Below, one piece after another: positions 12,353 to 34,351 of a stretch of 34,576 nt of DNA. This DNA comes from Planctomycetota bacterium (lineage in GTDB: Bacteria > Planctomycetota > UBA1135 > UBA2386). Position 1 is the first letter of the stretch; each line of letters begins with the position of its first letter. A program made the position numbers and the translations under genes. The notes under the pieces are model-generated. The model saw only the letters and a list, made by a program, of their open reading frames with translations. It did not search any database and was not told where the DNA came from. The DNA lies in the NCBI GenBank assembly GCA_016794485.1, contig JAEUHV010000517.1:1-34576 (forward strand), read 5' to 3'.

Positions 12353-15234
12353 TTGCCCTCCAGGCGTTGTCGCAGACGCTGCGCGTCCGGCCGCTCGCGC
12401 AGCGAAGTGAACCGGCGGTTTTCGAGCAGCCTGCGGCCCTCGGCGGCGTCGAGGTCGCCGAGACGCGCCAGCAAACGCACTGCTGTGCTCGCCGCATTCT
12501 CGGCCGCGGCGGGGTCGCCGGTGAGTCCGACCGCGGCGCGCGTGGCTGCATCGGCGGCCAGGCGGAGGGCTGCGAGCTGCCTGGGTGCCTGCTCGATCAC
12601 TTCGGCGGCGGTGGCGGCGACCTCGGCATGGCGACCGAGTCGGGCCAGGGCGTAGGCGCGCTGGCTGCAGTGGATGCCGAGGAATGCGTGCGCACGGCCG
12701 TGCTTCGGCAGGCGCGCGACCACTTCGCGTTGTGCGGCGATCGCGGTGTCGGCGGCAACGAGCGCGGCGGCCGCGTCGCCGCCCTCGTTGTGCAGCGAAG
12801 CCAGGCCGTTCCAGGCGACGCCGAGTTCGACCCGGAAATCGAGGTGGTCCGGGTGCTCGGCGACGAGGCCGTGCATCGTCTCGGCCGCCCGCGTGAACCA
12901 CCGGCGGGCTTCCTCGGCGTGCTCGGAGAGGTCGGTGCGCATCGACAGGCAGGTCGCAAGCTGCATGGCCAGGTCGGCGCGAACGGACCGCTCCATCCAA
13001 TCGCCACCCTTGTCGTCCGCGTCGTCTCCGTCGAGGCCCGCGCGCAGCAGGGTTTCCGCTTCGGCCACCTCGCCGCGCACCAACAACGACGACGCCAGCA
13101 TGGACCGACACCAGAGGCGCGTTCGCTGCAGGGGGCGTGAACCTGGGTAGTCGCGCAACAGGGTCTCGGTCTCGGCCAGTCCCTGGCGCAGTTCCCGTTC
13201 TGCGTCGGCCGGCCGATCCAGGCGGTGCAGTGCAGTGCCAAGGTCGACGTGGGCCCGCGCGAGTTCGACGCCCAGCAGGGGCGTGCGCGGCAGCTCGGCC
13301 ATGCGTGCCACCACCTGGGCCAGGAGTCCGTGGGCGTCCGCGGTCCGGAACGTCGCCAACAGGACCTGGCCGAGCATCGCATCGTTGCGCACCCGCAGGA
13401 CCTTGGCCTCGGGATCCGAGTCGAGTTCCTGCCGCGCCAGCAGCAGCGCCGCGGCGCGCAACAGCCGCTCCGCCTCGGCGCGGCCGTCGAGGCGCGCAGC
13501 CAGGGCCCGGGCGCGGATGTGCAAGGTCTCGGCGTGGATTCGCGTGCACTCAGGCGACGGCGACCCTGGTCGTGCTTGCTCCCAATGGGCGATCGCGCGC
13601 GCGAACTCGTCGGCGGCGCCGCTCGGATCGAGTTGCTGGCGGGCGTGCAGTTCGCGCACCAGGATGCGGCCGAGCAGCAACACCTCCGAATCGGCCGCTG
13701 GGTCCCGTGCGGCCGCCAAGAGGGCCCGGGCCCGGTTGCAGGCGGTGATCGCTTCGGCGTGGCGCCCGAGCTGAGTCTGCAGGCCGGCGATGCGCCAAAG
13801 CGCGTGCGCGACGCTGCGGGCACGGCCGTGTTCGCCGGCGCGCAGCGACAAGTAGCTCTCGCACAGCGCGACGACATAGGCGAGTTGCGGTTGGCGAACG
13901 AGGTCGGCCTCGGGCTCCTGGTCGAGTCGCTCACCCAGCAGGGTCAAAGTCTGTTCGATGCTGCGGAAGCCAAGCTCCTCGGCCGCGACCAGGACCTCTC
14001 GTTCGCGGCCGATCGTGGCGTTGGTGTCGATCAAGTGCAGCGCGTAGGCCGTCGGTGCCCCGACGATGCCCAACAACGCCGCCGCCGTGATCGTCGCGCC
14101 GACGCGGTGGCGCCGCAGCCACTTCGCACTCCGGGTGAACGGACCGGGCGGCAACGCGTGGATCGGCTCGATGCGCAGGAAGCGACGGAGGTCGGCGGCG
14201 AACGCGCCCGCGCTCGGGTAGCGGTCCTGCGGCCGACGTTCGAGCGCCTTGTGGCAGATGGTCACCAGGTCCCGCGGGACCGAGGGGGCCGCGCTGCGCA
14301 ACGACGGGAACTCGCCGTCCTCGATCCGTCGCAGCACGACGCGGGCGCTGTCGCCGTCGAACGGTCGGCGGCGCGCCAGTAGTTCGTAGAGCACGATGCC
14401 GAGCGAGAACACGTCCGCGGTGGGGCCGGCGGTGATCCCGAGCACCTGCTCCGGGCTGCAGTAGTGCGGCGTGCCCAGGAACTCGCCGTGGGCCGAACTG
14501 CGTCCGTCGAGCTCGCGGGCCAGGCCGAAGTCGAGCAGGCGAACGGTGCCGTCCGGCGTGATCATCACGTTGTGCGGCTTCACGTCGCGATGCACGACGC
14601 CGTGTGCATGCGCGTGCTGCAGTGCGTCGGCGACCCGCGCGACGACTTCGGCCACTTCGGCGGCGCGGCTGCAGTCGCCGCGCACACCGAGACGTTCGTG
14701 CTGCATCACGTCGGCGAGCGGCAGGCCGTCGACGAACTCCATCGAGTAGTAGTGCGTGCCGCGCCATTCGCCCACTTCGTGGATCGGCACGATCGCCGGA
14801 TGGCGCAGACGGGACGCGGCGGCGGCTTCGCGCCGGAAGCGCTCGATCGAGCGTGGCGACGCGGTGCTCGCCGCCGGCAGGACCTTCAGTGCGACCCGCC
14901 GACGCAGCGACAGTTGTTCGGCTTCGTAGACGACGCCCATGCCGCCGCGGCCGACTTCCCGCACGATGCGGTAGTCGCCGACGCAGTGGCCAGGGCCGAT
15001 CGGTGACGTCGTTGCGGTGACGCCATCGACGTCGTCGTCGGCGGCGACCGGGTCGAACATCGGCTCGAGCAATTCGCGCAGCGGTTCGTGCTGGCGCAGG
15101 AAGTGCTCGCGGTCGCCGCCGGAGCGTTCGAAGGCGAGGAAAGCCTCCATTGCCGCCGCCAGCCGCTGCAGGCGAAGTTGCTGCGTATCGGCCGGAGGCC
15201 GGCTGGTCGGGTCGGGCGGGTGCATGCGCGGCAC
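12349..15234 (-). CDS. Membrane Ser/Thr protein kinase with TPR-like sensor region
   Basis: A 961-residue PknB-type kinase. The kinase domain spans about residues 87-355: Gly-rich loop GRGGMGVVYEAE, catalytic Lys117 in VALKVLP, HRD at 215-217 (HRDVKPHN), DFG at 235-237 and GTPHYCSPEQ. A single membrane helix follows at about 379-400. The remaining 550 residues are Ala/Leu/Arg-rich helices with paired A/L patterns like tetratricopeptide repeats, probably a sensor or docking region outside the membrane. The start is a GTG at 15234; an ATG at 15225 three codons later is equally possible, and neither has a clear ribosome binding site. Its stop overlaps the ECF sigma gene, which suggests a kinase-sigma signalling pair. 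Confidence 0.92.
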   Translation of the reverse strand: MPRMHPPDPTSRPPADTQQLRLQRLAAAMEAFLAFERSGGDREHFLRQHEPLRELLEPMFDPVAADDDVDGVTATTSPIGPGHCVGDYRIVREVGRGGMGVVYEAEQLSLRRRVALKVLPAASTASPRSIERFRREAAAASRLRHPAIVPIHEVGEWRGTHYYSMEFVDGLPLADVMQHERLGVRGDCSRAAEVAEVVARVADALQHAHAHGVVHRDVKPHNVMITPDGTVRLLDFGLARELDGRSSAHGEFLGTPHYCSPEQVLGITAGPTADVFSLGIVLYELLARRRPFDGDSARVVLRRIEDGEFPSLRSAAPSVPRDLVTICHKALERRPQDRYPSAGAFAADLRRFLRIEPIHALPPGPFTRSAKWLRRHRVGATITAAALLGIVGAPTAYALHLIDTNATIGREREVLVAAEELGFRSIEQTLTLLGERLDQEPEADLVRQPQLAYVVALCESYLSLRAGEHGRARSVAHALWRIAGLQTQLGRHAEAITACNRARALLAAARDPAADSEVLLLGRILVRELHARQQLDPSGAADEFARAIAHWEQARPGSPSPECTRIHAETLHIRARALAARLDGRAEAERLLRAAALLLARQELDSDPEAKVLRVRNDAMLGQVLLATFRTADAHGLLAQVVARMAELPRTPLLGVELARAHVDLGTALHRLDRPADAERELRQGLAETETLLRDYPGSRPLQRTRLWCRSMLASSLLVRGEVAEAETLLRAGLDGDDADDKGGDWMERSVRADLAMQLATCLSMRTDLSEHAEEARRWFTRAAETMHGLVAEHPDHLDFRVELGVAWNGLASLHNEGGDAAAALVAADTAIAAQREVVARLPKHGRAHAFLGIHCSQRAYALARLGRHAEVAATAAEVIEQAPRQLAALRLAADAATRAAVGLTGDPAAAENAASTAVRLLARLGDLDAAEGRRLLENRRFTSLRERPDAQRLRQRLEGK

Positions 15235-15397
15235 TGGGTGGGCAGTCTAGGCGGCGTGGTCGTACCGCGGACAGGAGCGTCGTGGCCCGGGCCGGGCGGA
15301 CAGGAAATCTCCGCGGACTGGTCCGGCGCAGATGGATGTCCGGTCTTCGTCGGTCGCGGCGCTTTCGTCGGCACCTGAATCCGAATCGAGGACCCAC

Positions 15398-17662
15398 ATG
15401 CTTTGGAACCGAACGACCCGTGCCGTGGCCGCGACGCTGCTCGCCGCCACCGCTTCCCACGCCCAAGAACCCGTCCATTCCGCAGGCCGCGAGCCCGGCC
15501 GCGGGCTGGTGACACCGGTGCACACCCTCGCCCCCGAGGGTGACGTCGCCTACGGCACCTGGGCGGCGGGCGACGACTACAAGGCCTCGTTCGACGGCGG
15601 CATGACGTTCGTGCCCTACGGCGAGCACGGTGGCCAGGCAGCTGCCGTCGCCTGGCGGACGGTGAGCGTGCGCGTCGGCGAGCACGAACTGGTCCATGGC
15701 GCGCCGCGGCGGTCCACGCAGTCGCGCCGGGTCGAGTTCGCCTTCGGTGGCGTCGTCGAGGCCTACGACGTGCGCGCCGAAGGGCTCGAGCAGACGTTCG
15801 TGCTGCAGGAACGGCCGGCCGCGGTCGGCGACCTCGTGGTGAGCGGTGCGATCTCGTCGACCCTGCTGCCGACCGTGCGCGACCGCGGCATCGCGTTCCG
15901 CGACGCGCGGGGAGTCGAGCGCGTGCACTACGGTGCTGCGACCGCGATCGACGCGCGCGGCCGCCAATGGGCCATGACGACGACCCTGGTCGGCGCTGGC
16001 CTCGAACTGCGCCTCGGCGCCGCCCAGCTCGCCGCCGCCGAGTTCCCGCTCGTCGTCGACCCGTTGATCGTTCCGGTCAACGTCACCACGGGCAGCGTGC
16101 TCGAAAGCGTCGCGATCTTCCACGACGACCTCGGCACCAAGGGTGTCTGGATCGCCGAGTCGCGCTACGCCGGCGGCGACGGCGACCTGCGCCTCTACCG
16201 CGCCGACAACGACGGCGGGGCTCCGGTACTGGTGTTCAGCGACATCACCGCGAGCTGGGAATCGATGGAGCCGAGCCTCGGCTCGCATCGGGGCTTGGGC
16301 AAGACCGTGCTGGCCTTCACCCGCCACATCGTCACCGGCGACACGCGCCGCGTGCGCGCGCACTTGCACGGCCGCAACGACATGGCCTTCGAAGGAACCG
16401 TCGTGTTCCCGCCGGCGCCGGGTGGACGCAACCAGTGGCGGCCGAAGGTGGGCACCGAGCGCAGCGCGCTGGCGCCGTTCTCGGTCCTGGTCGTGCACCA
16501 GGTGGAGGACATCGGCGCGTTCGCGAACGTCGCCACGAGTGCGATCCACGCCTTCGACCTCGACTGTACGGGAACCGGGTCGGTGACGGCGCAGTCCATC
16601 GTGGCGGAGGCGTTCGGCGTCGACTGTGAACGTCCGACCATTGCTGCGGCGAACGGCAACGCGAACCGCGTGTGGTACGTGGGCTACCAGCGCATGACAA
16701 ACGGCCCCGGCGCGACCTGGGACATCGGGCTGCGGTCCATCGATTCGGCGCTGATCGCCGACGTCGAGCAGGTCGTCGATTCCGGCTTCGCCGGCAACCA
16801 CGAGCTGGCGCCGGTGCTCGTCGGCTCCGGCACGCGCATGATGCTGTTCTACACGCAGTCGACGATCGCGGAGTCGAGCCCGAAGCCGCCGAACGCGAAC
16901 GGCCACCGCATCCGCGGTTCGCGTCTGTCGCGCATCGGCTCGTCGTGGGTGCAGCCGTTCGGCACCAACCTGCTGCAGTCCAACGGCGATCCGCGGCTCG
17001 AGATCGGCGGCGCCGACTACGACCGGTCCACGCAGAGCCACTGGGCGCTGACGTTCCGCAGCAACGCGACCGAGACGATCTACGTGCGCACCTACGGCTA
17101 CCAAGGCGAGGAGCTGACCAGCAACGCGGTCGATTCCCCGGCGTCGGGAACCGGGCTCGCGGTGGCCGGCGGGGTCGCCTACCAGGCGGACGACCACGAG
17201 TTCCTGGTCGGATACGGAATCTACGAACCCGGCGTGAACACCTACGTCCGGCTCGCGCGCAAGACGTGGCCCACGCCGGGTCCGGTGACCAACGTGGGGT
17301 CGGCCTGCACCACGACGCAGCTCGGGTGGAGCGGCGTCCAGCTGATCGGCAGCGAACTCGAGGGTCTGCTGTTCGGTGGTGCGCCGGCAGGCTCGATCAC
17401 CGTCGCGATCGTCGCGACGCAGACCGCGTCGTTGCAGCTGTTCGGGGTTCCGCCGGTGGCCGACGGCTGCTGGCTGCTGGTCCCGCTGGCGGGCCCCGAC
17501 TACCTCGGATTGCTGCCGCCGATCGCGGCCCAGAACGGTGGTTGGGGCCTGCCCCTGCCGGAGGGCCTCGACAGCTCGACGCTCTACTTCCAGGCGGTTT
17601 CGTTGGAAGCAGGTGGCACGTTCCGCACGTCGGCCCGCCTGCACGTGCCGATCGTGAAGTGA
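15398..17662 (+). CDS. Secreted protein of unknown function, 754 residues
   Basis: The ATG at 15398 is preceded by GAGGA eight bases upstream and starts a clear signal peptide (MLWNRTTRAVAATLLAATASHA, cut before QEP); an earlier in-frame ATG at 15332 would bury it. The mature protein has three parts. Residues about 30-235 form a beta-rich domain with EFAFGGVVEAYDVRAEGLEQ and YPLVxDPLI-like FPLVVDPLIVP, a layout often found at the start of large planctomycete and myxobacterial secreted proteins. Residues about 235-630 are beta-rich, possibly a propeller, with many SxW and GxGT turns. The last 120 residues (from NVGSACTTTQLGWSG) form a separate compact beta domain ending in HVPIVK. No catalytic motif is recognised. 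It is divergently transcribed from the kinase gene. Confidence 0.85.
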   Translation: MLWNRTTRAVAATLLAATASHAQEPVHSAGREPGRGLVTPVHTLAPEGDVAYGTWAAGDDYKASFDGGMTFVPYGEHGGQAAAVAWRTVSVRVGEHELVHGAPRRSTQSRRVEFAFGGVVEAYDVRAEGLEQTFVLQERPAAVGDLVVSGAISSTLLPTVRDRGIAFRDARGVERVHYGAATAIDARGRQWAMTTTLVGAGLELRLGAAQLAAAEFPLVVDPLIVPVNVTTGSVLESVAIFHDDLGTKGVWIAESRYAGGDGDLRLYRADNDGGAPVLVFSDITASWESMEPSLGSHRGLGKTVLAFTRHIVTGDTRRVRAHLHGRNDMAFEGTVVFPPAPGGRNQWRPKVGTERSALAPFSVLVVHQVEDIGAFANVATSAIHAFDLDCTGTGSVTAQSIVAEAFGVDCERPTIAAANGNANRVWYVGYQRMTNGPGATWDIGLRSIDSALIADVEQVVDSGFAGNHELAPVLVGSGTRMMLFYTQSTIAESSPKPPNANGHRIRGSRLSRIGSSWVQPFGTNLLQSNGDPRLEIGGADYDRSTQSHWALTFRSNATETIYVRTYGYQGEELTSNAVDSPASGTGLAVAGGVAYQADDHEFLVGYGIYEPGVNTYVRLARKTWPTPGPVTNVGSACTTTQLGWSGVQLIGSELEGLLFGGAPAGSITVAIVATQTASLQLFGVPPVADGCWLLVPLAGPDYLGLLPPIAAQNGGWGLPLPEGLDSSTLYFQAVSLEAGGTFRTSARLHVPIVK

Positions 17663-18351: not shown

Positions 18352-18873
18352 CTACCGGCCCGAGCCGGTCGCGCGCAGCAACGCCTGCAGCCGCTGCAGG
18401 GCACGCTTCAACCGGGTGCGCACGGTCTCGACGGGAACGTCGAGTTGCTCGGCGATGCGGGTCGGCAGCAGGTCGTCGAAGAAGCGCAGTTGCACGACGG
18501 TGCGGTAGTCGGCGGGCAACTGGTCGACGGCGCGCCGCAGCCGTTCAGCCTGGTCGGGGTCGAGCGTCGCCGCGTCGGGGTCGAGGCACAGCCCGCGCGC
18601 GACGGCCTGCTCGCGCAGCAGGCGGCGCTGCCGGCCGCGCAGGGCCTGCAGCGCGAAGTTGCGGACCACGGCCGCGAGCCAGCCGCGCGACAGGCCGTCG
18701 AGCCAGCCGGTCCCCTGGCCCTGCGCGACCGCGGCCAGCCAGGTGTCCTGCGCGGCGTCGTCCGCGGCCTGCGGATCGCGCAGCAGACGGCGCGCCAGCG
18801 ACCGCACGAAGTGGTCGTCGGCCGGGAATCCGGCGGGGTCGGTCGGGGTGGGAGTGGGCTCGGGCAAGGACAC
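18352..18873 (-). CDS. ECF-type RNA polymerase sigma factor (second)
   Basis: A 173-residue sigma factor with region 2 (RRLLRDPQAADDAAQDTWLA and VVRNFALQALRGRQRR) and region 4 (LPADYRTVVQLRFFDDLLPT, then RIAEQLDVPVETVRTRLKRA). The start is taken as the GTG at 18873; there is no strong ribosome binding site and no better in-frame start nearby. It is upstream of the spermidine-synthase-like gene with a 14-base gap and divergent from the MotA/TolQ/ExbB-like gene. No kinase or anti-sigma gene is adjacent, unlike the first sigma factor here. Confidence 0.88.
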   Translation of the reverse strand: MSLPEPTPTPTDPAGFPADDHFVRSLARRLLRDPQAADDAAQDTWLAAVAQGQGTGWLDGLSRGWLAAVVRNFALQALRGRQRRLLREQAVARGLCLDPDAATLDPDQAERLRRAVDQLPADYRTVVQLRFFDDLLPTRIAEQLDVPVETVRTRLKRALQRLQALLRATGSGR

Positions 18874-18985
18874 CGGGAAGATGCCGCGCGGCCCCGGACC
18901 GGTTCACGCCAGGCGGGAAATCCTGTGCGCGATGAACCGGTTGCCGCCCTTGCGGCATTCCCCAGGCGTCTCCCACGAGGTCCCA

Positions 18986-19663
18986 ATGCCCATCGCCTGC
19001 TTCGCCGCCGCTGCCGTCGTTCCCGTTCCCCGTCCCCCTGCGGACGGTCTCTACGGCCTGTTTCTCGAGTGCGGCGTCGCCGGCCCGGTGTTGCTGTTGC
19101 TCGGCGTCGTCGCGGGTTGGAAAGCCGTGGTGCGTTGGCTCGCCCTGCGGCCGCAGGTGCTGGCGCCCGACGGCCTGCAGCGAGGCCTCGAACAGGCGCT
19201 GCGTTCCGGCCAGATCGCGAACGCGACCACCCTGTCGACCGCGAGCGGCTCGGCGCTCGGGCGGTTGGTCGCCGCCGGGCTCCTGCTCCGCGCCGGCGGA
19301 CTCGACGAGATGCTGGCCAACTGCGAACGCGCGGCGATGCAGCAGGCGATGCTGCGTCAAGCGGGTGCGGCGAGCCTCGCGCGCTTTGGCACCGTGATCC
19401 TGCTGTTCGCCGTGTTCGGCACGGTCACCGGGGTGATGAGTGCGCTCACGGTGCTCGAGTCGATGAAGGAGCCGACCGTGCAACTGACGATGACCGGCAT
19501 CCGCGAGGCGCTCGGCTGCACCGCGATCGGACTCGCCTTGTCGACCTGCTGTTTCCTCGCGTGGTCGCTGCTCGCCAGCCGCGCCGCGGCCGGCCTGCAC
19601 CGCGTGCGCGAGATCGCCGAGGAACTGCTCGCCGAAGCGGCTCGTCCCGATCGTGCGGGCTGA
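18986..19663 (+). CDS. MotA/TolQ/ExbB-family proton channel protein
   Basis: A 225-residue inner-membrane protein with the three-helix layout of the family: one helix near residues 24-48, a cytoplasmic helical stretch rich in Ala and Glu, and two helices near 132-160 (ARFGTVILLFAVFGTVTGVM) and 180-205. The TM2-TM3 pattern with TMTGIREALGCTAIGLALST matches ExbB/TolQ. ExbB/TolQ work with an ExbD/TolR partner to drive outer-membrane processes with the proton gradient, but no partner gene is adjacent. The ATG at 18986 is chosen because GAGG lies seven bases upstream; an in-frame ATG at 18932 is possible. The next gene is convergent with an 8-base gap. Confidence 0.82.
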   Translation: MPIACFAAAAVVPVPRPPADGLYGLFLECGVAGPVLLLLGVVAGWKAVVRWLALRPQVLAPDGLQRGLEQALRSGQIANATTLSTASGSALGRLVAAGLLLRAGGLDEMLANCERAAMQQAMLRQAGAASLARFGTVILLFAVFGTVTGVMSALTVLESMKEPTVQLTMTGIREALGCTAIGLALSTCCFLAWSLLASRAAAGLHRVREIAEELLAEAARPDRAG

Positions 19664-20385: not shown

Positions 20386-23300
20386 ATGCTGTTGACGGAT
20401 CTCCTGGCGCGCGCGGTCGATCGGTTCGCGGAGCACGCGGCCGTCGACATCCCGCCGGGGCCCGGTCGACCGACGCGCACCGTGCTGACGTTCGCGCGGC
20501 TGTCGGCGATGGCGGATGCCGTCGCGGGAGATCTCGCGCCATTCGTGCACGGCGAAGCGATGGTGCTGGTGCTGTTGCCGCGCACGAGCCCCTGGCTGGT
20601 TGCGGCCCAGATCGGCGTGCTGCGGGCCGGGGCTGCGTTCGTCTGCGTCGATCCGTCGCACCCGGATGCGCACATCGCCCATGTCGCCCACGATGCCGGG
20701 CCCAGAGCGGTGCTCACCGACGCGGTCGGTCTGCCGCGGGTGCGCGGCCTCGGTGCAGCGGTGCTCGAACTGCCCACGGGTGGAGCCCGGCGGACCGCAG
20801 CGGCACCGCACCCACGGCCGCCATGGCAGGTGCCGACGACCCTCGCCTACGCGATCTACACCTCGGGAACGACCGGCAAGCCGAAGGGCGTGTTGCTCGA
20901 ACACGCCGGCGTCGTGAACCTGATCACGCGCGGCGTGCAACGCTTCGGGCTCGGCCCTGGCGATCGGGTCGCGCAGGGCAGTTCGGCCGCCTACGACTCG
21001 TCGATCGAGGAGTCGTGGCTGCCGCTCGCGAGCGGTGCCACGCTCGTCGTGCTCGACGACGCGACCGTGCGCGCCGGACCCGACCTCGCGCCCTGGCTGC
21101 GCCGCGAGCGCATCACCGTGTTCTGTCCGCCGCCGACGTTGTTGCGCGCGATGGACGTGCGCTCGCCGCGCGACGAGCTGCCCGACTTGCGGTTGTGCTA
21201 CGTGGGTGGCGAAGCGCTGCCGCAGGACCTCGCCGATCTGTGGGGTGCCGCGCTGTGGCTCGAGAACGGCTATGGGCCGACCGAGTGCACCGTCACCGTC
21301 GTGCGTGGCCGCGTGCACCCGGGCCGTCCGGTCGGTATCGGGCAGCCGGTGGAACCGCACGTCGCGTGGCTGCTCGACGAAGACCTGCAGCCCGTGCGCG
21401 ACGGCGAGGTCGGCGAACTCTGCCTCGCGGGCCCCGGGCTGGCACGCGGCTACCTCGGCTTGCCGGACCTCACGCAGCAGCGCTTTCCGGTGTTGCCCGG
21501 CATCGGTCGCGTCTATCGCACCGGCGATCTCGCCCGGCGCGGCCCCGACGGCGAGCTCACGTGCCTCGGACGCATCGACAGCCAGGTGAAGGTGCGCGGC
21601 CATCGCATCGAACTGGAAGCGATCGAGAGCGTGCTGGCCCGCTGCGACGGGATCCGCGAGGCCGCGTGCCGCACGCAGGACGAGGGCGGACAGAACGTGC
21701 TCGTCGCCCACGTCGTTCCGGCCGTGCCGGGGCCGATCGATGCGGTGGCACTGGCGGCGTCCGTGCGCGCGGTGTTGCCCGAGGTGATGGTGCCGACGCG
21801 GTTCGGAACGTTGGCGACGCTGCCGCGCACGATCGGCGGCAAGGTCGACCGCAAGGCGTTGCCGATCCTGGCTCCGACGGCTGTGGCCGCTGCCGGTGCC
21901 GTGGCGTGGCAGCCGACGACCGGACGCGAGCAACGGTTGCGCGCCCGTTGGGCGCAGGTGCTGCAGCTGCCCGAAACGGCGATCGGCGAGTCCGACGACT
22001 TCTTCGCGCTCGGCGGCAACTCACTGCGCGCGGCGATGCTGGTGTCGGCCCTGCGCCGTCTTGGCGACGACTCGGCGATCGCGGTGCGCGACCTCTACGA
22101 GTGCCCGACGTTCGCGGCGTTCGCGGCGCGGGTCGCGGCGAACACGGCCGGGCAGGCGACCGCAACCACCGCGGGCACCGGCGAGACGGCGCGCGGGCCA
22201 GCGTCCCGAGCGGAGGCGGTCGGAGCAGCGCGGCCGCGGCCGTTCTTGTTCACGCTCGTGCAGATCGGCTACCTGCTGGCCCTGCTCGCCGCCGCTTCGG
22301 CGGTCGCGTGGGCCGCAGGCTTCGTGCTGCTGCCGTGGGCGTTCACCAGCTTCCGGCTCGAACTGCTCGTGCTGCTGTTGCCGTGGTTCGCGGCCCTTGG
22401 CCTGTGTGCCTACACGCTCGCGACGGCGTGGCTCGCAGTGGCGGCGAAGGAACTGCTCATCGGCCGCTACCAGGCCGGTCGCTGGCCCGCGTTCTCGGGG
22501 TTCCATGCGCGCCATTGGCTGGTCGTCCGGTTCGTGCGCCTCGTGCCGTGGTCGTTGCTCGAAGGCACCGAGGCGAAGAACGTCGTGTTGCGCATGCTCG
22601 GCGCGCGCATCGGCCAGCGTGTGCACGTGCACAAGGGCGTCGACCTGCTGTGCGGTGGGTTCGACCTGCTCGAACTCGGCGACGACGTCACGCTGCAGCG
22701 TGAAGTCGATCTCGGGCTGTGCGTGCTCGACCGCGGCGAACTGGTGCTCGGCGCCGTGCGCATCGGTGCGGGCGCAACGTTGGCGACGCGGGCCGGCACC
22801 GCCGGCGACGTCGAGATCGGGGCGGGCGCAGTCGTCGCGCCGCTGGCGTTCGTCGACGCGGGTGCCCGGGTACCGGCCGGTGAACGTTGGCACGGCGTGC
22901 CGGCGCGACCGGGCGGCGCAGCACCGCAGCCGGCCGTGGTCGACGTCGTCGGCGCCGAACTGCCGCCGTGGTGGTACACGGTGCTGCTGTTGTCGGCACG
23001 CGTACTGTGGGCGCCGCTGGTCGCGGCTCCGTTCACCCTGGTGCTCTGGTCGGTCGCAGCCGCCGCCGGTGTCGACGGCCGGGCACTCGTGCTGTGGTTG
23101 TGCGGCGAGGGACCCTGGTCCCATCCCGGCTGGGTGGTCGCGACGGTGGTGTTGGCCGTCGTCGGCCTGCCGGTCGCGCTCGTCGCACAGGCGCTGGCGC
23201 TGCGCTGGTCGCCGCGCATCCCGGCCGGCACGCACGCACGCTGGTCGTGGCTGCACCTCCAGCAGCAGGTGCGCACCGAACTGCTCGAATCGGCCGGCAC

Positions 23301-25461
23301 GTGGCTGTCGGGCACGTTGTTCTGGCCGGCGTGGCTGCGGCTCGCCGGCATGCGCATCGGCCGCGACGTCGAGATCAGCACGATCCTCGACGTGTTGCCC
23401 GAACACACGACCGTGGGCGGCGGCTCGTTCCTCGCCGACGGCGTCTACCTCGGTGTGCCGTGGCAACACGGGGGCGCCGTCACGGTCGCGCCGACCACAC
23501 TCGGCGAACGCACCTTCGTCGGCAACCACGTGGTGGTCGCCGCCGGCGAACGGCTGCCCGACGACCTGCTGCTCGGCATCGCCACGATCGGCGACGCGCG
23601 CACGATGACCGCGAACACGGCCTGGTTCGGCCTGCCGGCGTTCGCGCTGCCGCGCCGCGAAGTGGTCGCGGTAGACCGCCGGCTCACGCACGAACCGGGC
23701 CCGCTGCGGTTCGCGAATCGTGTGTTCTGGGAAGCGCTGCGCGTCCTGCTGCCGGCCCTGCCGGTGCTGCTCGCGTTGTGGTGGTTCGACGTGGTCGGGG
23801 GCGCCGCGGCGACGTTCGCGCAGGGCGCGCTGCGCGCTGCCGCGGCGACGTTCGGCGTGGCTGCCGCGCTCGCCGGCACCGTGCTGGTGCTCAAGTGGCT
23901 GCTGCTCGGGCGCGTGCGGCCTGGGCAACACGGACTGTGGTCGTGCTGGGCCAGCCGGTGGGACTTCCACTACGTGCTGTGGCAGCGTTACGGCCGCGGG
24001 CTGCTGCAGCAGATCGAGGGAACCCTGTTGCTGCCGTGGTTCCTGCGGGCGATGGGCATGCGCATCGGCCGCTGCTGCCTGCTCGGCGACGGCTTCGCGC
24101 AGGTCGTCGATCCCGACATGATCGCGATCGGCGACGGCGCCACCGTGCACGCGTTGTTCCAGGCGCACAGCTTCGAAGACCGCGTGCTGAAGATCGCGCC
24201 GGTGCAGATCGGGTCCGGGGCCACCGTCGGTCGCGGTGCGGTCGTGTTGTACGGGGCCGACATCGGCGACCGCGCGCACGTGCTGCCGCACAGCGTCGTG
24301 ATGAAGAACGAACTGCTGCGTGGCGATCGCGACCACGCCGGCGCGCCGACTCGCGAGGTCGCGGTGGCGCCGCCGGCGAACACGTCGCTGCCGACGGAGC
24401 GCACGGTCGAATGCGGGCGCGTCGACGCGTTCGATGTGCTGCGCGGCCTCGCCGTGCTCGGCATGGTGTTCCTGCATCTCCTGCCCGAACCCGACGACGC
24501 CGCGCACGGCGGTGTGGTCGCGTTCCTGCTCGGCCTGCTCGACGGCGTGCCGGCGGCGACGTTCCTGTTGCTGGCCGGTGTGGCGTGGGGGATCGGGCCA
24601 TCGCCGTCGTCCCGCTACGTGCTGCGGCGCGCTGCGGCCTTGGTAGCGGTCGGCGTGCCGTTCTGGCTCGCGTGCTGGCCGAACGACGTGCTGGTGCCGA
24701 TGGCGGCGTGCCTCTTGTGCGTGGCGCCACTGTTGCGGCTCGGCCGTGGGGCGCTCGTCGCCGCATTGGTCGCAGTGCTGGTGTCGACGCCGTGCATGCA
24801 CGCGGCGTGGGGCGAGACCTTCGCCGCCGACCTGCGTGACGACGGCACGCACGCCGCGAACCATGCCTTCGGCCTCGCGACGCTGCGTTGGTACTGCGCG
24901 AACGGGGCCTATCCGCTGCTGCCTTGGCTGGCCTTGCCCGTGTTGGGTGCGTTGCTGGCGCGGTCGGCCCACGGCGACCCGTCGCGCTGGCGCCGCATCG
25001 CGTGGCTGGCGCTGCCGCTGCCGCTGGTGGCGTGCGGCCTCGACGCGCTCGCGCACGCCGAAGTCGAGGGGCTCGGCGACCTCGCGGCCCATCTGCAGGT
25101 GGAATGGCAGCCGACGACGCTGGTGTTCCTGCTGCGCAACGGCGGGGCTGCGGTACTGCTGCTCGCCGGGATCGCGTTCGTGGCGGCGCGCCGGGGCCTG
25201 TGGTCGGCGACGGCGCCGCTCGCGGCGATCGGGCGCATGTCGCTGACGCACTACCTGCTGCACACCGTGGTCCTCTACGGCGCGCTGCGCCTCGAGTGGC
25301 CCGCCGAGGATTGGCCGATCGGCGTGGGGCTGGCCGCGTTCGCCGGCTACGTCGCCTTCGCGTGGCTCGCAAGCCCTTGGTGGCTGCGCCGCGCGGGTAG
25401 GGGCCCGTGGGAGGCCGCGCTCAACGCGGCTTCGGGGTCGCGCGGTCGAGCTGCTGCCTGA
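20386..25461 (+). CDS. Pls/PosA-type single-module peptide synthetase fused to a membrane acyltransferase-like domain
   Basis: A 1691-residue protein. Domains in order: an adenylation domain (about 1-500) with AIYTSGTTGKPKGV near 156-169, ENGYGPTECTVTVV and the A10 Lys486 in GGKVDRKALP; a carrier domain with DDFFALGGNSL, Ser546 being the phosphopantetheine site; a membrane region from about 620 with three tandem hexapeptide (left-handed beta-helix) domains at about 739-840, 988-1085 and 1224-1325, each opening with GARIG or GMRIG. This is the layout of Pls (epsilon-poly-L-lysine synthetase) and related enzymes, which link amino acids without a condensation domain. An additional multi-helix domain (about 1345-1691) starts with RVDAFDVLRGLAVLGMVFLH and ends with IGRMSLTHYLLHTVVL, like DUF418/HGSNAT acyltransferases. 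The start ATG at 20386 lacks a clear ribosome binding site. The product is unknown; a poly- or conjugated amino acid is an inference. Confidence 0.85.
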   Translation: MLLTDLLARAVDRFAEHAAVDIPPGPGRPTRTVLTFARLSAMADAVAGDLAPFVHGEAMVLVLLPRTSPWLVAAQIGVLRAGAAFVCVDPSHPDAHIAHVAHDAGPRAVLTDAVGLPRVRGLGAAVLELPTGGARRTAAAPHPRPPWQVPTTLAYAIYTSGTTGKPKGVLLEHAGVVNLITRGVQRFGLGPGDRVAQGSSAAYDSSIEESWLPLASGATLVVLDDATVRAGPDLAPWLRRERITVFCPPPTLLRAMDVRSPRDELPDLRLCYVGGEALPQDLADLWGAALWLENGYGPTECTVTVVRGRVHPGRPVGIGQPVEPHVAWLLDEDLQPVRDGEVGELCLAGPGLARGYLGLPDLTQQRFPVLPGIGRVYRTGDLARRGPDGELTCLGRIDSQVKVRGHRIELEAIESVLARCDGIREAACRTQDEGGQNVLVAHVVPAVPGPIDAVALAASVRAVLPEVMVPTRFGTLATLPRTIGGKVDRKALPILAPTAVAAAGAVAWQPTTGREQRLRARWAQVLQLPETAIGESDDFFALGGNSLRAAMLVSALRRLGDDSAIAVRDLYECPTFAAFAARVAANTAGQATATTAGTGETARGPASRAEAVGAARPRPFLFTLVQIGYLLALLAAASAVAWAAGFVLLPWAFTSFRLELLVLLLPWFAALGLCAYTLATAWLAVAAKELLIGRYQAGRWPAFSGFHARHWLVVRFVRLVPWSLLEGTEAKNVVLRMLGARIGQRVHVHKGVDLLCGGFDLLELGDDVTLQREVDLGLCVLDRGELVLGAVRIGAGATLATRAGTAGDVEIGAGAVVAPLAFVDAGARVPAGERWHGVPARPGGAAPQPAVVDVVGAELPPWWYTVLLLSARVLWAPLVAAPFTLVLWSVAAAAGVDGRALVLWLCGEGPWSHPGWVVATVVLAVVGLPVALVAQALALRWSPRIPAGTHARWSWLHLQQQVRTELLESAGTWLSGTLFWPAWLRLAGMRIGRDVEISTILDVLPEHTTVGGGSFLADGVYLGVPWQHGGAVTVAPTTLGERTFVGNHVVVAAGERLPDDLLLGIATIGDARTMTANTAWFGLPAFALPRREVVAVDRRLTHEPGPLRFANRVFWEALRVLLPALPVLLALWWFDVVGGAAATFAQGALRAAAATFGVAAALAGTVLVLKWLLLGRVRPGQHGLWSCWASRWDFHYVLWQRYGRGLLQQIEGTLLLPWFLRAMGMRIGRCCLLGDGFAQVVDPDMIAIGDGATVHALFQAHSFEDRVLKIAPVQIGSGATVGRGAVVLYGADIGDRAHVLPHSVVMKNELLRGDRDHAGAPTREVAVAPPANTSLPTERTVECGRVDAFDVLRGLAVLGMVFLHLLPEPDDAAHGGVVAFLLGLLDGVPAATFLLLAGVAWGIGPSPSSRYVLRRAAALVAVGVPFWLACWPNDVLVPMAACLLCVAPLLRLGRGALVAALVAVLVSTPCMHAAWGETFAADLRDDGTHAANHAFGLATLRWYCANGAYPLLPWLALPVLGALLARSAHGDPSRWRRIAWLALPLPLVACGLDALAHAEVEGLGDLAAHLQVEWQPTTLVFLLRNGGAAVLLLAGIAFVAARRGLWSATAPLAAIGRMSLTHYLLHTVVLYGALRLEWPAEDWPIGVGLAAFAGYVAFAWLASPWWLRRAGRGPWEAALNAASGSRGRAAA

Positions 25462-26861: not shown

Positions 26862-27932
26862 TCAACGGGCGCGCGGAGCTCGGTGAGCACTCTGGTCGGC
26901 CGTCGTGGTCGCGCGGTCGAGCTGCTGCCTGATCCATACGCGAACGGCTCCCTCCGTCCTGGCGTCGAGGCCGGCCAGCGCGTCGCCCCACAGGGTTACG
27001 GCGTGCGGAGTGCCGGCCGCGGCGTCGGCGAGTTCGACCCGCGCGGCGGCGCGGCGCAGCGGGTCGCCTTCCCATGCGGCGCCGATCGCTTTGCGCGCCG
27101 CCTCGATCGCCTCGGCCCGTTCGTCCGTCGACCCGTCGCGCGTCGCCTGCACCCGCGCGATCGCCGCGCGGGCCAGCGCGACGAACGTCGGCGGCACCGA
27201 GGGGGCCGGGTCCGACTTCGCGTCGAGCCACGCGAGCGCTTCGTGCGGTTTGCCGGCGGCGAGCAGGCGCCGCGCGAACACGTCGCGTTGGTCGACGACC
27301 CAGCCCGCGGACTTCACGGCCGGCAGCTCCTGGTCCTGGGCGAGCACCGCGGCGAGTGCGGCGGTCAGCGGCATCGGGTCCGCCCACGGCAGCTTGTCGA
27401 CGATGCGGCCTTGGCGATCGATCAGGAACGCCGGGCTCGGCAGGTCCGAGAACAGCGCGCGCGACGCGTCGTCCATGCCATCGACGAAGATCGGCAGCGG
27501 CACTTCGAGTTCGTCCCGGATGCGGCGGGCCAACGTGCAGCGTTCGGCGAACGTGCCCGGCTGCGCGACTTCGGCGAACGCCATCCGGCCGGCGTGCGGT
27601 TCCTTCTGTTCGACCACCGCGAACACCACGTCGGTCGACTTCTCGTTCTCCCGCCAGAGCTGCCGCAGACCTGCGGCCGCGCGCCGGAACGGGGGTCAAG
27701 TGAAGCCGGCCTTGATCACCACCACGATGCGTCCGCGCCACTGCGACAGCGCGTGCGGCCGGCCGTCGAGGTCGATCAGTACGAGGTCGGGCGCCATCGT
27801 GCCGACGGCGGGTTCGGCTTGCAGGAACCGTTGCCGTTCGAACAACGCGTCGTCGCGTTTCTCCATCTGGGCCGGCAGCGCGGCCGCGGCGAGGGCGAAG
27901 CAGAGCGGCAGGAAGCGAAGGGTCGGATTCAT
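26862..27932 (-). CDS. Exported deiodinase-like redoxin, predicted selenoprotein (in-frame TGA = Sec79)
   Basis: Read through one TGA (27696-27698), this is a 356-residue protein. It has a signal peptide (MNPTLRFLPLCFALAAAALPA), a redoxin fold (GTMAPDLVLIDLDGRPHALS, then RIVVVIKAGFT-U-PPFRR), then QPGTFAERCTLARR, LPIFVDGMDDASRALF and SPAFLIDRQGRIVDK, which match iodothyronine-deiodinase-like bacterial proteins. In the family the active site is T-C/U-PPF; here the Cys/Sec codon is TGA. A hairpin with a GGTC loop follows 24 bases later (see 27662-27677). Frame, similarity and codon use continue without a break on both sides. After residue 165 comes a helical tail of unknown role. It overlaps the FGE-like gene by four bases (ATGA). 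The last codons lie in the inserted segment. A pseudogene is the alternative; I favour a selenoprotein. Confidence 0.85.
26907..26935. repeat. 29-bp direct repeat, right copy
   Basis: This is the second perfect copy of the 29-base repeat at 25436-25464. It lies inside the 3' part of the selenoprotein gene, where on the minus strand it encodes WIRQQLDRAT. The same residues would be read in the left copy, where they run on to PKPR and a stop. This copy therefore marks the right edge of the inserted segment. Confidence 0.93.
27662..27677 (-). promoter_or_regulatory. Predicted bacterial SECIS hairpin
   Basis: On the minus strand GCCGCA-GGTC-TGCGGC forms a perfect 6-bp stem with a GGTC loop; after a G/A mismatch, two more pairs extend it. 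The loop begins 24 bases after the TGA, within the range known for bacterial SECIS elements (about 16-37 bases to the loop guanine). The core GCAGGTCTGC is identical to the apical part of the E. coli fdhF SECIS. It lies in the coding region, as bacterial SECIS elements do, and would recruit SelB with Sec-tRNA. Confidence 0.8.
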
Positions 27933-29008
27933 CGGTCGGAGCTCCCGGTATCGGACAGGTCGCGGGCGACGCGGAAGCCGATGTCGTCGGTGCGGACATC
28001 GGGCCACTGCCGCATGCGGAACGAATTGCGCAGGTACATCCCGTCGAGCACGAACGAGCCGCCGCGCAGCACATGGGTGCCACCCTGCGTCGGCTTGCCG
28101 GCTGCGGACGGGTCCCGGTAGACGTCGGCGGTCCACTCGAACGCGTTGCCGGTCATGTCGAACAGGCCGTAGCCGTTGGCTGCGAACGAGCCGACTTCGC
28201 GCAGCGTGCCCGACTCCTGGTTGGCGGCGTCGCGGCGATAGACGTTGCCGTAGGCGAACACGAACGAGGCCGGCCCGCGCGCGGCCTTCTCCCATTCGAC
28301 TTCGCGCGGCAAGCGGTGGGGCACGCCGGTCACCCGGCTGCGCCAGCTGCAGAAGGCCCGTGCGCCGGCGAGGCTCACCGTGACCACGGGCAACTGGGGG
28401 GCATCGCTGGTCCAGCGGCCGTCGGTGCCCAGCTGGCACCGGAACTTCTTCGAGTCGAACGCGCACCACACGGCGTCGAGCCCACCTTCGACGCCGTTCA
28501 GGAACGTCGCGAACTCGCCATTGGTGACCTCGTGCTTCGCCAGCCAGAACGCCGGCACGTCGACGACGCGGGCAGGCCGCTCGTCTTCCTGGCCGATGCC
28601 GAGCGTGTCGCCGACCACGGCCGGTCCCGCGGGCACGAACGCGAACGCAGCATCGTCGACCGTCGGCGGCGACACGTTGACGACGAGGCGCAGCGTGGCA
28701 TCGGCCGGGAGCGCGTTCGGCAGCAGCGGGGCCGGGAATGCAATCTCGCCGTGCGCGTGCTTGGCGTGCACGACGTAGGCACCCGGCACGACCACGAGCC
28801 GATGCGTCGCCGCCGCGCCGAGTTCGACCAGCGGACGCACCGTGTCGCCCTCGACCACGGACAGCCGCAGCGTGCGGTGTTCCGGATTGGCGATTTCGAG
28901 GCGCGCCTGCGCCGACGAGGGTCCGAGGGGTGCGCCCTGGCAGGCGGCCAAGAAGGCGCACGGCGCGAGCAGTTTGGAGGGGCGGCAACGCACGCGCGAG
29001 GGATCCAT
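27929..29008 (-). CDS. FGE/SUMF1-domain lipoprotein
   Basis: A 359-residue protein with a lipoprotein signal (lipobox LAAC, Cys23). Residues about 30-120 form a beta-rich domain. Residues 123-350 are an FGE-sulfatase (formylglycine-generating enzyme-like) domain: FVPAGPAVVGD, KHEVTNGEFATFLN, LPREVEWEKAARG, GLFDMTGNAFEWTADVYRDP, HVLRGGSFVLDGMYLRNSFR and GFRVARD. True FGE enzymes have two catalytic cysteines just after RGGS; here both are Leu (321 and 326), so it is probably not an FGE but a structural or binding member, as many bacterial ones are. Its stop overlaps the start of the selenoprotein gene (ATGA), so the two are translationally coupled. It is divergent from the Cys-rich secreted protein gene. 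Confidence 0.9.
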   Translation of the reverse strand: MDPSRVRCRPSKLLAPCAFLAACQGAPLGPSSAQARLEIANPEHRTLRLSVVEGDTVRPLVELGAAATHRLVVVPGAYVVHAKHAHGEIAFPAPLLPNALPADATLRLVVNVSPPTVDDAAFAFVPAGPAVVGDTLGIGQEDERPARVVDVPAFWLAKHEVTNGEFATFLNGVEGGLDAVWCAFDSKKFRCQLGTDGRWTSDAPQLPVVTVSLAGARAFCSWRSRVTGVPHRLPREVEWEKAARGPASFVFAYGNVYRRDAANQESGTLREVGSFAANGYGLFDMTGNAFEWTADVYRDPSAAGKPTQGGTHVLRGGSFVLDGMYLRNSFRMRQWPDVRTDDIGFRVARDLSDTGSSDR

Positions 29009-29152
29009 GGCGCGAACGGACCTTACACCGCGTGCTTCCGAAATGGCGGGGGACGACTGGGAGTTCGACCCGGGCGCGCAGGGCCAGCGATGGGTGCGGG
29101 GCATTTTCGGCTGCGAAGGCGTGCGTTCGCCGTCGCCGGGTTCTTCCCCAGC

Positions 29153-30358
29153 ATGCGCCACCTGCTTCCCGTCTTGTTCCCGCTGCTCGCCGCCGGCACC
29201 GCCGCGGCGCAGACGATCCCCAACCTGATCGCCCCGACGCTGAACAACACGTTGATCGACCAGAGCATCCACGGCACCTGCACCCCGCTCGGCAACTGCG
29301 GGTCGCTCCAGCCCGGCACGGGCACGTGGTTCTGGGCCGGCGGCTCGGCCTGGGATTCGACCAACACCGGAGTCTGGATCAGCAACGGGTCGTCGCTCGC
29401 CCGCTACGGCATGAACGGCTGCACGCTGCAGTGCGGACCGTTCCTGCCGCCGGTCCTCGGATGGGTGACCGGCATGGACATGCACGACGGCAACAACCGG
29501 CTGTGGTTCATCGACAGCTCCGGCTGGATCCACGAGGCCACGAACGCATGTCCGCCGGTCGTGGTCAACAGCTGGAACACCGGCTTGCCGATCACCGGCA
29601 CGACCGTCACCAGCGCGATCGCGATCGACGAACTGCGCGGCCTCATCTTCTACACGACGTGCGACTTCGGCTTCGGCAACGGCTGGATCCGCGCGGCACC
29701 GCTCGCCAATCCGGCGGCATGGTTCAACGTGGCGCCGCTGTTCGACTGCATGCCAGTGCCGACGCTGGTGACCGGGCTCGCCTGCGATGCCGCGAACAGC
29801 GCGCTCTACTGGACCAACGGCCGCGGCACCAACCGCTGGACCTACAACTACAACCCGACCGGACCCACGATCGCCTACACGCCGGGCACCTGCTGCCTGC
29901 AACTCGCGCCGATGCCCGATCCGTACACCGACCTCAGCATCCGTTGGGGCGGTGCGACCTCGGCCGGTGGCCCGTGCGCGAACGGCGCCTGCGCGCCGTG
30001 CCCGAACGTGCACCTGCTGCGCAACGCGCCGTTGCTCGGCACCAACCTGCAGCTCGGGCTCGACCTGTGCCAGCCGGCGACGTTCGCGCTGTGCGGCGTC
30101 GACTTCGGGCCGTGCAACACCGGCGTGGCGTTCCCGCCGCTGTGCGGCCCGCTGATGCTGCCGATGACCGCGGCGATGCTGCCGATGGGGCCGAACATCC
30201 CGGCCGGGCCCGGTCCGTGCGCGGCCAGCACCACGTGGATCCTGCCGCTGCCCAGCAATCCGTCGTTCGTCGGCACGGTGATGTCGTCGCAGTGCCTGTC
30301 GCTCTGCCTGCCGAACGGCACCTCGATGAGCAACTGCCTGACCTGGGTCCTGCAGTGA
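29153..30358 (+). CDS. Cys-rich secreted protein of unknown function
   Basis: A 401-residue protein with a clear signal peptide (MRHLLPVLFPLLAAGTAAA, cut before QT). The start at 29153 is chosen because it begins the signal; the frame is open much further upstream but lacks coding character. The mature part contains 21 cysteines, many in GTC, GPC or LC settings, and repeated short beta units with TW and WFID-like turns (GVWISNGSSLARYG, NRLWFIDSSGWIHEA, GLIFYTTCDFGFG, SALYWTNGRGTNRW), which suggests a beta-propeller. No enzyme motif is seen. I do not recognise the family. Confidence 0.78.
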   Translation: MRHLLPVLFPLLAAGTAAAQTIPNLIAPTLNNTLIDQSIHGTCTPLGNCGSLQPGTGTWFWAGGSAWDSTNTGVWISNGSSLARYGMNGCTLQCGPFLPPVLGWVTGMDMHDGNNRLWFIDSSGWIHEATNACPPVVVNSWNTGLPITGTTVTSAIAIDELRGLIFYTTCDFGFGNGWIRAAPLANPAAWFNVAPLFDCMPVPTLVTGLACDAANSALYWTNGRGTNRWTYNYNPTGPTIAYTPGTCCLQLAPMPDPYTDLSIRWGGATSAGGPCANGACAPCPNVHLLRNAPLLGTNLQLGLDLCQPATFALCGVDFGPCNTGVAFPPLCGPLMLPMTAAMLPMGPNIPAGPGPCAASTTWILPLPSNPSFVGTVMSSQCLSLCLPNGTSMSNCLTWVLQ

Positions 30359-30389: not shown

Positions 30390-30929
30390 GTGCTGCACCG
30401 ATTCGAGATCGCTCTCGCCGACGTCGACCGCGGCGTCTACCAGGACCTCGACCTGCGCGTCGCGCGCCATCCGTCCGAGGACAACCCGTATCTGCTGACG
30501 CGCATCCTGGCGTTCGCGCTCGAACACAAGGACGGCCTCGCGTTCAGCAAGGGCTTGTCGGAATCGGACGAGCCGGCGATCTGGCTCAAAGACGCGGAAG
30601 GCCGCGTGCAGGAGTGGATCGAGGTCGGCGCGCCGGCGGCCGACCGGCTGCACCGCGCGAGCAAGGCGTGCCCGCGGGTCGTCGTGTGGTGCCACCGGCG
30701 CCCCGACATGCTGCAGCAGCGCTGCGCCAAGGAACGGGTGCACAAGGGCGACCAGATCGTCGTCTGGAAGGTGCCCGCGGACCTGCTGACGGCGCTCGAA
30801 CGCAAGCTCGACCGGAACAACAAGTGGGACCTGTCGCGGCACGAGGGCCGCGTGACGGTCGTCGTCGGCGGCGAGGCGATCGAAGCGGTGCTCGAATCGG
30901 TGCCGCTGGTGCCGGCGGAGGGCGCGTGA
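30390..30929 (+). CDS. YaeQ family protein
   Basis: A 179-residue protein matching YaeQ along its whole length: MLHRFEIALADVDRGVYQDL, HPSEDNPYLLTRILAFALEH, GLSESDEPAIWLKDAEGRV, then WIEVGAPAADRLHRASKA and VVVWCHRRP. YaeQ has a PD-(D/E)XK-nuclease-like fold, but its cellular role is not settled. The start is a GTG at 30390. Its stop overlaps the GTG start of the YjbR-like gene (GTGA at 30926-30929), so the pair is likely one operon. Confidence 0.93.
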   Translation: MLHRFEIALADVDRGVYQDLDLRVARHPSEDNPYLLTRILAFALEHKDGLAFSKGLSESDEPAIWLKDAEGRVQEWIEVGAPAADRLHRASKACPRVVVWCHRRPDMLQQRCAKERVHKGDQIVVWKVPADLLTALERKLDRNNKWDLSRHEGRVTVVVGGEAIEAVLESVPLVPAEGA

Positions 30930-31313: not shown

Positions 31314-34300
31314 TCACTCGACGGTGATCGCGAACTCCGGAGCCGCTTCGTTGCCGGCGCGATCGCGGACCTTCAACTTCAAGGTGAACGACGCCTTCTG
31401 CGCCGGCAGCGCCAGCGTCCAGGTGCCGGCCTTCTCGTCGACCCGCGCCACGGCGCCTTCCGCCGTGAGCACGCTGGCGATGCCGCTCGGGTCGCTGCAC
31501 TTGCCTTCGAGCACCAGCGGCTTCGTGGTGGGCACCTTCTGGTCCGGCCCCGGCGACGTCAGGGTCACGGCCGGCGCGGTCGTGTCGCGCACGATCTCGA
31601 CCACGAACGGGTCGCTGTTGCCGAGCTTGTTGGTCGCGCGCACCTCGACCCGCCGCACTTCGCCTTCGCGCAGTCCGGTGAGTTCGATCGCGTCCCCCGA
31701 GGCCATGGGCCGGTCGTCGACCAGCAGCTGCGGCGCGGAACCGCCCGCGGTGGCCACGAGCTTCGCCGCATCGGCGGCGACGAAGCAGCGTTCGCCGCGC
31801 GGGAGCAACCGGGTGGCGCCGTTCGCGGTCAGGGTCACGCTGCGCACCGAGGCCGGCTGGATCGTGCAGTCGACCGTGCTGACCCGCTTGTTGGTCGCCT
31901 TCGCCAGGTTCTCGACCTTGATGTCGAGCGTGTTCCTGCCGCGGTCCAGCGGCACTTCGCCGATCCACACCGGCTCCGGCTCGTTCACGTCGCGGACCAG
32001 TTCGTAGGTGACGCCATTGCGCACCACGAAGGCGCGCCGAACCCACCGGTCGACGCGGCCGACGCGCACGCGTGCAGACAACGATTCGGTCGAACTCTCG
32101 AACCCCGGCTCGAGCACGGCGAACGCGGGCGAGCGGGTCAGCTTGACCACGTTGGGCACGATCGCCGTCGCCGGTTGGCGATCGGCGCGCGTGGCGACGA
32201 GCCGCAGGTCCTGCGGTTCACCCTCGATCGGCACCGGCAGGCGCAGTTCGAAGCCGTCGGCGGTCGCGGTGGGTTCGATGCGTTTGCCGTTGCAGGTGAA
32301 CTCGACGCCGTCGGCGGGGATCACGCGGCCGCGCACGACGATCTCATCGGTGGTGGTTACGGCATACCCTTCGACCCGGCCGTCGGCGGCTTCCGGTGTC
32401 ACCGCGAACGCGAGCGAGCGCATGGACGGGTCCAGTTGCGGGTCGACCTTTGGTTCGACCTTTGGTTCGACCTTGGGTTCGACCTTGGGTTCGACCTTGG
32501 GTTCGACCGGCGGCGTCACCACGGGCTGCGGATCGCGCGGCTTGGGTTCGACGTAGCGCAGCGGCCAGCGCGCGAGTTCGACCTCGGTGCCGTCGGTCAA
32601 CGTCGCCCGCACGGTGAGTTCGGCGCCGGTGGCGGCCACGCTCGCGGCGAACGCGCCGTCCGCAGCGCGGAGGGCGGTGGTGTCGCCGAGGCGCAGCGCC
32701 TGCACGCCGTCGCCGGGAGCCAGCCGGAACGTGAGCAATGCGCCGGGGGCAAGCTGGTCGCCCGGGGCCTGCGCCCGCACGGCCTCGGCGGCGGCGGCGC
32801 GGACCTGTTCGCGCAGCAACTGCTGGCGGCGGGTCAGGGTGGTGTCGTCGGGGGCCAGCGTGCGCGCCGCCACCATCGCGGCCAGCGCCTGCGCCCAGCG
32901 TTGCTGTGCGGCCAGGTCGCGGGCTTCGTCGGCGGCCTTCTCGGCCCGTTCAGCGGCGGTCGGGGCCGGCAGCGGTTTCTGGTCGACGACCGCCGGTGGG
33001 TCGGTCGCGTTCGGCGTCGGTGCTGGCGGCTTCGGGTCGGTCTGCGGTTGCGGCGGCGTCGTGGTCTGGTTGACGACCGGGTTCGGGGTCGGTGGCGTTT
33101 CGATCGGAGGGTTTGCCCGCAAGGCCCACCAGACCACGGCGACGGCACCGACCCCGACTCCGGCGATCAGGGCGTTGCGACCGCGGCCGGGGGCTGGCAG
33201 CGGCGTGGTTCCGGTGCCGCGGCTCGGCGACGAAGTCACGACGGTGCGGTCCGGGAGCACGTCCGGCGTGATCCCGGCCGGTCCACCGAACGAACCGGTG
33301 TCGCGTTCCTTCTTCAGGCCGGACGGCGTCGGTGAACGGGTCAGGAAGTCCTCGCGCAGCCACTGCTTGATCTGCTCGAGGTTCTTCAGCGGCGGCGGCG
33401 ACAGCAGCGTCTGCGCCGCCGTGGTCCCGGCCGACGCATCGCGCAGGGGCAGGCGCCGCAACGGCAGGGCGGCGATCGCAGTCGCGAGTTCGCCGGCGTC
33501 GAGGTAGCGCTGGCCCGGTTCCTTCGCGGTCGCCTTCGCCAACACCGCCGCCACCTCGGCGGGAACGTCGGGCCGGAGCTCGCGCACGTCGGGGAACGGC
33601 TGCAACAGGATCTTGCGCATGATGCGCGCCGGGATCCGTTCCGGGTCGGTGATCGCGTCTTCGCCCGTCAGCAGGAAGTACATCGTGGCGCCCAGCGCCC
33701 ACACGTCGGCCGCGGCGGTGACGTTGGTCGACTCCCACTGCTCTGGCGGCATGTAGGACGGCGTGCCCATGATCTGGTTGGGCGACGACAGCGTCGACTG
33801 GCCGGCGTTGCCGAGCGTGGGCTTGGCGAGGCCCATGTCGGCGACCTTCACCTGGCCTTGGTGCGACACCAGCAGGTTGTCTGGCTTGATGTCGCGGTGC
33901 ACGAAGCCGAGGCGGTGCGCCTCGCCGAGGCCCGCGGCCGCGTCGTGCATCAGCTGCAGCGCTTCGCCGACCGCGAGCGGTCCCTTGCGTTCGACGCGCT
34001 GGCGCGCGGACTCGCCGACGACCAGCTCCATCACGATGTAGTGCAGGCCGGCGCTCTCGGCGACGTCGTAGACGCGGATGACGTTCTGGTGGCTGATCTT
34101 CGCCGCCGACTGGCCCTCGCGGCGGAAGCGCTGCACGAACAGCGGATCGTCGGCGACGAGCTGCGGGCGCAGCACCTTCACCGCGACGTCGATGTCGAGG
34201 TTGAGATGGCGGGCGCGGTAGACCGCACCCATGCCGCCCTGGCCGATCTTGCCGAGGATCACGCACGGCGGCAGCACCTTGCTACCGGCCACCTCGGTGA

Positions 34301-34328: not shown

Positions 34329-34330
34329 CG

Positions 34331-34351
34331 CGCGGCAAGGATCTTGCCGCG
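34331..34351. promoter_or_regulatory. Perfect inverted repeat just before the kinase start codon
   Basis: CGCGGCAAG and CTTGCCGCG form a perfect 9-bp stem around a 3-base loop (GAT on the + strand). It ends two bases before the ATG at 34328 of the kinase gene, so in mRNA it would cover the ribosome binding region, or in DNA it could be an operator. If translation begins at 34541 instead, it would lie within the coding region. Confidence 0.6.

Follow-up and report, generated by a model that had tools for sequence, protein, structure and literature searches.

A predicted poly-amino-acid synthetase from a distinct branch of the polylysine-synthetase family, with a fused membrane acyltransferase and a SET-methyltransferase partner

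The window, a 34,576-nucleotide stretch of DNA that forms a contig of a fragmented 5.9-Mb Planctomycetota genome, carries a single uninterrupted open reading frame for a protein of 1691 residues (Table 1). The start is backed by alignment, with MLLTDLF also opening the proteins of relatives. The protein comprises an adenylation (A) domain, a carrier, a Pls/PosA-type terminal domain and a C-terminal membrane acyltransferase (TmAT) domain. Upstream of it lies a MotA/ExbB-like gene (18659-19663) rather than a SET-domain gene. Two large Ser/Thr protein kinase-domain proteins, encoded at 12349-15234 (-) and 31314-34541 (-), flank the region, and the large predicted genes at 15332-17662 (+), 26883-28121 (+) and 28073-30358 (+) gave no Pfam match at E 0.001. 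Several genes downstream of the synthetase is a YaeQ-family gene (30390-30929, +); a gene of this family adjoins the synthetase in two related loci, L028 (11662-12198, -) and L031 (5885-6421, +).

Table 1. Features of the fused synthetase-acyltransferase gene; positions are those of the window.
Feature	Position	Strand	Basis
Whole fused gene, A - carrier - Pls/PosA-type terminal domain - TmAT, 1691 aa	20386..25461	+	ORF, Pfam, NCBIfam, alignment
Adenylation domain, residues 9-486	20410..21843	+	Pfam AMP-binding, AMP-binding_C; TIGR01733 above cut-off
Pocket stretch, residues 204-304, nine of the ten pocket residues	20995..21297	+	Tenth residue is K486
Carrier (PP-binding) domain, residues 516-583, GGNS motif with Ser546	21931..22134	+	Pfam
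Pls/PosA-type terminal domain, residues 631-1321, three membrane/beta-helix units	22276..24348	+	TIGR02353; AlphaFold2
TmAT (HGSNAT_cat/DUF418) domain, residues 1345-1678	24418..25419	+	Pfam, profile, AlphaFold2, Foldseek
DxxRx10H motif DVLRGLAVLGMVFLH, residues 1350-1364	24433..24477	+	TmAT motif

Within the A domain, Pfam places AMP-binding at residues 9-357 (215 bits) and AMP-binding_C at residues 413-486, ahead of the PP-binding match; Hexapep was also matched in the protein. The substrate pocket is lined by residues D204, S205, E208, C247, Y272, G274, G295, V303 and T304 together with K486, giving the code DSECYGGVTK, which is common to nearly all relatives, with M replacing C in a few. 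Residues D204 and E208 are the counterparts of PosA Asp217 and Glu221, the residues binding the alpha-amine and the side-chain amine, and a basic amino acid is therefore the likely substrate; the rest of the code is unlike that of PosA. Gly295, at the position of PosA Thr304, and Tyr272 suggest a bulkier cation. All ten code residues recur in the Bdellovibrionales homologue OFZ39577.1 (Bdello_A), which reportedly activated arginine modestly but none of the known diamino acids; the 2023 study left the code an orphan (PMC10522769).

NCBIfam model TIGR02353, the Pls/PosA terminal domain, matches residues 631-1321 with 354 bits (E 1.5e-105). An AlphaFold2 model of the terminal domain and TmAT, running from about residue 617 to the end (1075 residues, 40-row alignment), shows three units of transmembrane segments and left-handed beta-helix followed by a helical membrane bundle (pLDDT 90.8, pTM 0.92); no solved Pls structure was among the PDB matches listed. 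The score of the fused protein lies below the curated TIGR02353 cut-off of 423.1 bits, as do those of the tested clade members (355-361 bits), while the Pls of Rhodococcus reaches 564 bits. In a tree with Pls proteins carrying other codes, the DSECYGGVTK members form one clade with support of 100. The cut-off and the clade test rule out an ordinary member of Pls/PosA. The Pls-type architecture put forward in an earlier note on this DNA is thus borne out by Pfam, TIGR02353 and AlphaFold, but the protein is no ordinary Pls: it sits in a clade of its own and has another substrate pocket. Like the epsilon-poly-L-lysine synthetase and the delta-poly-L-ornithine synthetase PosA, the protein joins an A domain and a carrier to three membrane/beta-helix units, has an Asp and a Glu in the pocket, and has no classical condensation or thioesterase domain that we could find; unlike them, it falls short of the family cut-off, has another pocket code, carries an extra C-terminal TmAT and has a SET partner gene. 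By sequence, the synthetase is a member of a distinct branch of the polylysine-synthetase family.

The extra C-terminal domain was recovered by both of the Pfam families that had been predicted for it, HGSNAT_cat at residues 1345-1544 (39.5 bits, cut-off 22) and DUF418 at residues 1531-1678 (49.6 bits, cut-off 23.6). Modelled alone, it adopts a helical TmAT fold (pLDDT 90.1), and its 13 best PDB matches by Foldseek were all human HGSNAT, with a probability of 1.00 and TM scores of 0.50-0.59 but E-values of only 0.004-0.03; a profile of the domain also picks up HGSNAT by sequence (E 1.3e-4). The first membrane helix bears the DxxR motif as DVLR at residues 1350-1353. The longer DxxRx10H, described as the AT3 type of the TM1 motif (PMC12423673), is retained by the TmATs examined, both fused and adjacent, one of which has E for D. 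In a FastTree phylogeny with a small comparison set of six other TmATs, one of them from Rhodococcus, those linked to this synthetase form one clade with support of 99. The domain thus shares fold, Pfam models and DxxR with the HGSNAT / YeiB-DUF418 branch of the TmAT superfamily, but differs in being fused to a synthetase, in having the H of the AT3-type motif and in forming a subfamily separate from the six TmATs compared.

A pairing of Pls and TmAT occurs independently on the Rhodococcus erythropolis plasmid pLRE138 (L115, 7722-13773), which encodes a Pls/PosA synthetase, a BPL-N protein and an HGSNAT-type acyltransferase. As in the present family, synthetase and acyltransferase share one overlapping operon; there, however, the synthetase is a standard Pls/PosA (the 564-bit protein above, code DFEYLGTVTK), and the TmAT belongs to another branch and is not fused. 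On plasmids of Kocuria, Corynebacterium and Mesorhizobium, generic HGSNAT genes had no Pls nearby, and a literature search for HGSNAT together with polylysine returned nothing relevant.

We compared 34 genomes of the family, the named relatives being mostly Planctomycetota metagenome-assembled genomes (MAGs), one labelled CL500-15. The synthetase is present in 24, fused in 10 and followed directly by a separate TmAT gene in 4; the remainder are without a TmAT or cut by contig ends. The whole fused architecture is kept at 52-70% identity in nine genomes besides the window's own, which speaks against chance, and two further fused copies, in MAGs L073 and L074, fall in another clade, bringing the fusion to 12 genomes, a recurrence that rules out an assembly artefact or a pair of genes misread as one. 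Separate proteins occur in just a subset of relatives, where the genes adjoin or overlap, so that the single chain read in the earlier note holds. Neither outcome that the note named as refuting it was thus seen, since the domain searches do recover the C-terminal family and the window encodes one protein. The separate TmATs belong to the same subfamily as the fused ones, and their genes often overlap that of the synthetase by 4 bp, as in the Armatimonadota-labelled MAGs L076 and L079. The recurrent fusion, with adjacent genes elsewhere, indicates that the link between synthetase and TmAT is functional, and the use of the same partner in both states is strong evidence for a shared function. 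Several members, such as G006 of the same genus as the window's genome, have no TmAT at all, so the domain is not essential to the core reaction. Just after the TmAT of L079, the gene at 7034-7639 (+) resembles a phosphopantetheinyl transferase but scores below threshold (18.3 bits, cut-off 25), and it was left out of account.

By neighbourhood comparison and Pfam, relatives carry a SET-domain gene of about 166-231 codons directly upstream of the synthetase. With a SET profile, this arrangement was found in about 33 loci of Planctomycetota and Armatimonadota (25, plus L123, L124 and six further Armatimonadota loci). The gene is co-directional and nearly touches or overlaps the synthetase in L025, L027, L032, L033, L037-L042, L074, L076, L149-L155 and others. 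The relatives' proteins retain the NHSC and FDY motifs as well as the post-SET cysteines. Across the family, 21 genomes have both genes, 3 the synthetase only, none the SET only and 10 neither (Fisher 2e-6), and across 392 genomes of the phylum the synthetase accompanies 10 of the 11 strong SET matches (Fisher 4e-15); both values are inflated by the relatedness of the genomes. The synthetase also occurs on four Streptomyces plasmids that closely resemble one another (code checked on two), with the same SET about 14 kb away; these plasmids account for four of the six matches that the SET query gave among 72,556 plasmid records. In Armatimonadota, 8 of 12 DSECY loci have a SET and 7 of 12 a TmAT, whereas seven Pls loci with other codes have neither as a neighbour. 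The control was a second Pls-like clade of that phylum (L158-L164, codes DAESIGTVIK and DGESLGTVGK), which has no SET or TmAT neighbours. A literature search for SET together with NRPS returned nothing relevant.

The window's genome keeps its copy of this SET subfamily unlinked, on another contig (C142, 7527-8012, -; L117), and the SET is also away from the synthetase in G003, G001 and G006, in a partly shared neighbourhood. Pfam SET does not match the C142 copy and gave only an unrelated one, but the clade profile found it, ruling out the absence of a SET from this genome. Its NHSC motif reads DHGC, which makes its activity uncertain. The suggestion that the fused protein may act alone is therefore not upheld, given the upstream co-directional SET of relatives and the copy elsewhere in this genome. 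Two phosphopantetheinyl-transferase-superfamily matches in the genome indicate that the carrier can probably be activated.

From the observed architecture, motifs, conserved linkage and co-occurrence, we infer a substrate class, polymerisation, an acyl donor and acceptor, and a methylation target. We propose a membrane-bound synthetase of the Pls/PosA kind with a built-in tailoring acyltransferase and a methylating SET enzyme, which would turn a basic amino acid into a short, acylated, cationic (iso)peptide, an account to which we give an even chance. The A domain would activate the basic amino acid through the acidic D204 and E208 and load it onto Ser546 of the carrier, and the three-unit membrane terminal domain would condense the loaded residues, most likely into a short cationic (iso)peptide, a step carried over by analogy from PosA and the epsilon-polylysine synthetase. 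The fused TmAT would then draw on cytosolic CoA for an acyl group, probably acetyl, and pass it across the membrane to the product's free amines, capping or neutralising the product as it emerges, and the SET methyltransferase would methylate amines of the precursor or product. Counting against this account, the sole assayed A domain with the code showed modest arginine activity only (PMC10522769), the SET of the window's genome is unlinked and has the altered DHGC motif, and several members do without a TmAT. A pathway to a methylated and acylated (poly)amino acid appears to be the best reading of the sequences, and the modified product foreseen in the earlier note is counted likely. Inheritance of the synthetase branch together with a SET-type methyltransferase makes it probable that the product is a chemically decorated poly-amino acid not isolated so far. 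A more specific version, in which a small SET enzyme was recruited to small-molecule biosynthesis, the cation accepted by the pocket is bulky or quaternary (such as arginine or methylated lysine) and the acyltransferase caps the polymer during export, is tentative and somewhat less likely; its product would amount to a new class of decorated poly-amino acids.

The synthetase might instead pass a single basic residue, or a few, to a small amine or an acceptor in the envelope, making an aminoacyl conjugate without a polymer that the TmAT acylates at the cell surface. We consider this unlikely. In its favour are the likeness of the beta-helix units to small-acceptor acyltransferases (CysE and maltose acetyltransferase, for example), the scores of the clade, which fall short of the Pls/PosA cut-off, and the lack in arginine of a primary side-chain amine for the usual isopeptide chain; against it, the complete Pls/PosA architecture is kept, and all characterised members of that architecture cited in previous work are polymer makers (PMC10522769, PMC8117764).

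Known SET enzymes mostly act on protein side chains, and the SET is kept even where it is unlinked, both of which would fit a regulatory methylation of a lysine of the synthetase itself, with a product that is acylated and not methylated. We judge such a role improbable, to much the same degree as the conjugate: the SET tracks the substrate code and not the architecture, being missing beside Armatimonadota Pls proteins of other codes, which suits a function linked to product chemistry. That the TmAT does no tailoring, serving instead in self-protection or envelope modification and being fused so that the two are expressed together, is very unlikely; acceptors in its family are many and varied (PMC12423673), the self-protection gene PldII lies beside pls in other systems (PMC8117764) and many members have no TmAT, but a covalent link maintained throughout the family and present in two distinct clades points to a shared intermediate.

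The cationic homo-poly(amino acids) known so far are few. The orphan code DSECYGGVTK now marks a whole clade, spanning Planctomycetota, Armatimonadota and Streptomyces plasmids, that is linked to a SET methyltransferase and to a membrane acyltransferase, the latter fused to the synthetase in some members. The newly recognised SET partner makes the orphan pocket directly testable, with arginine and N-methylated lysines as candidate substrates, and the product modifications can be tested as well. If our proposal of a methylated and acylated product is correct, a class of polymers that serve as preservatives would gain methylation and acylation, and SET enzymes would have a role beyond ordinary protein methylation.
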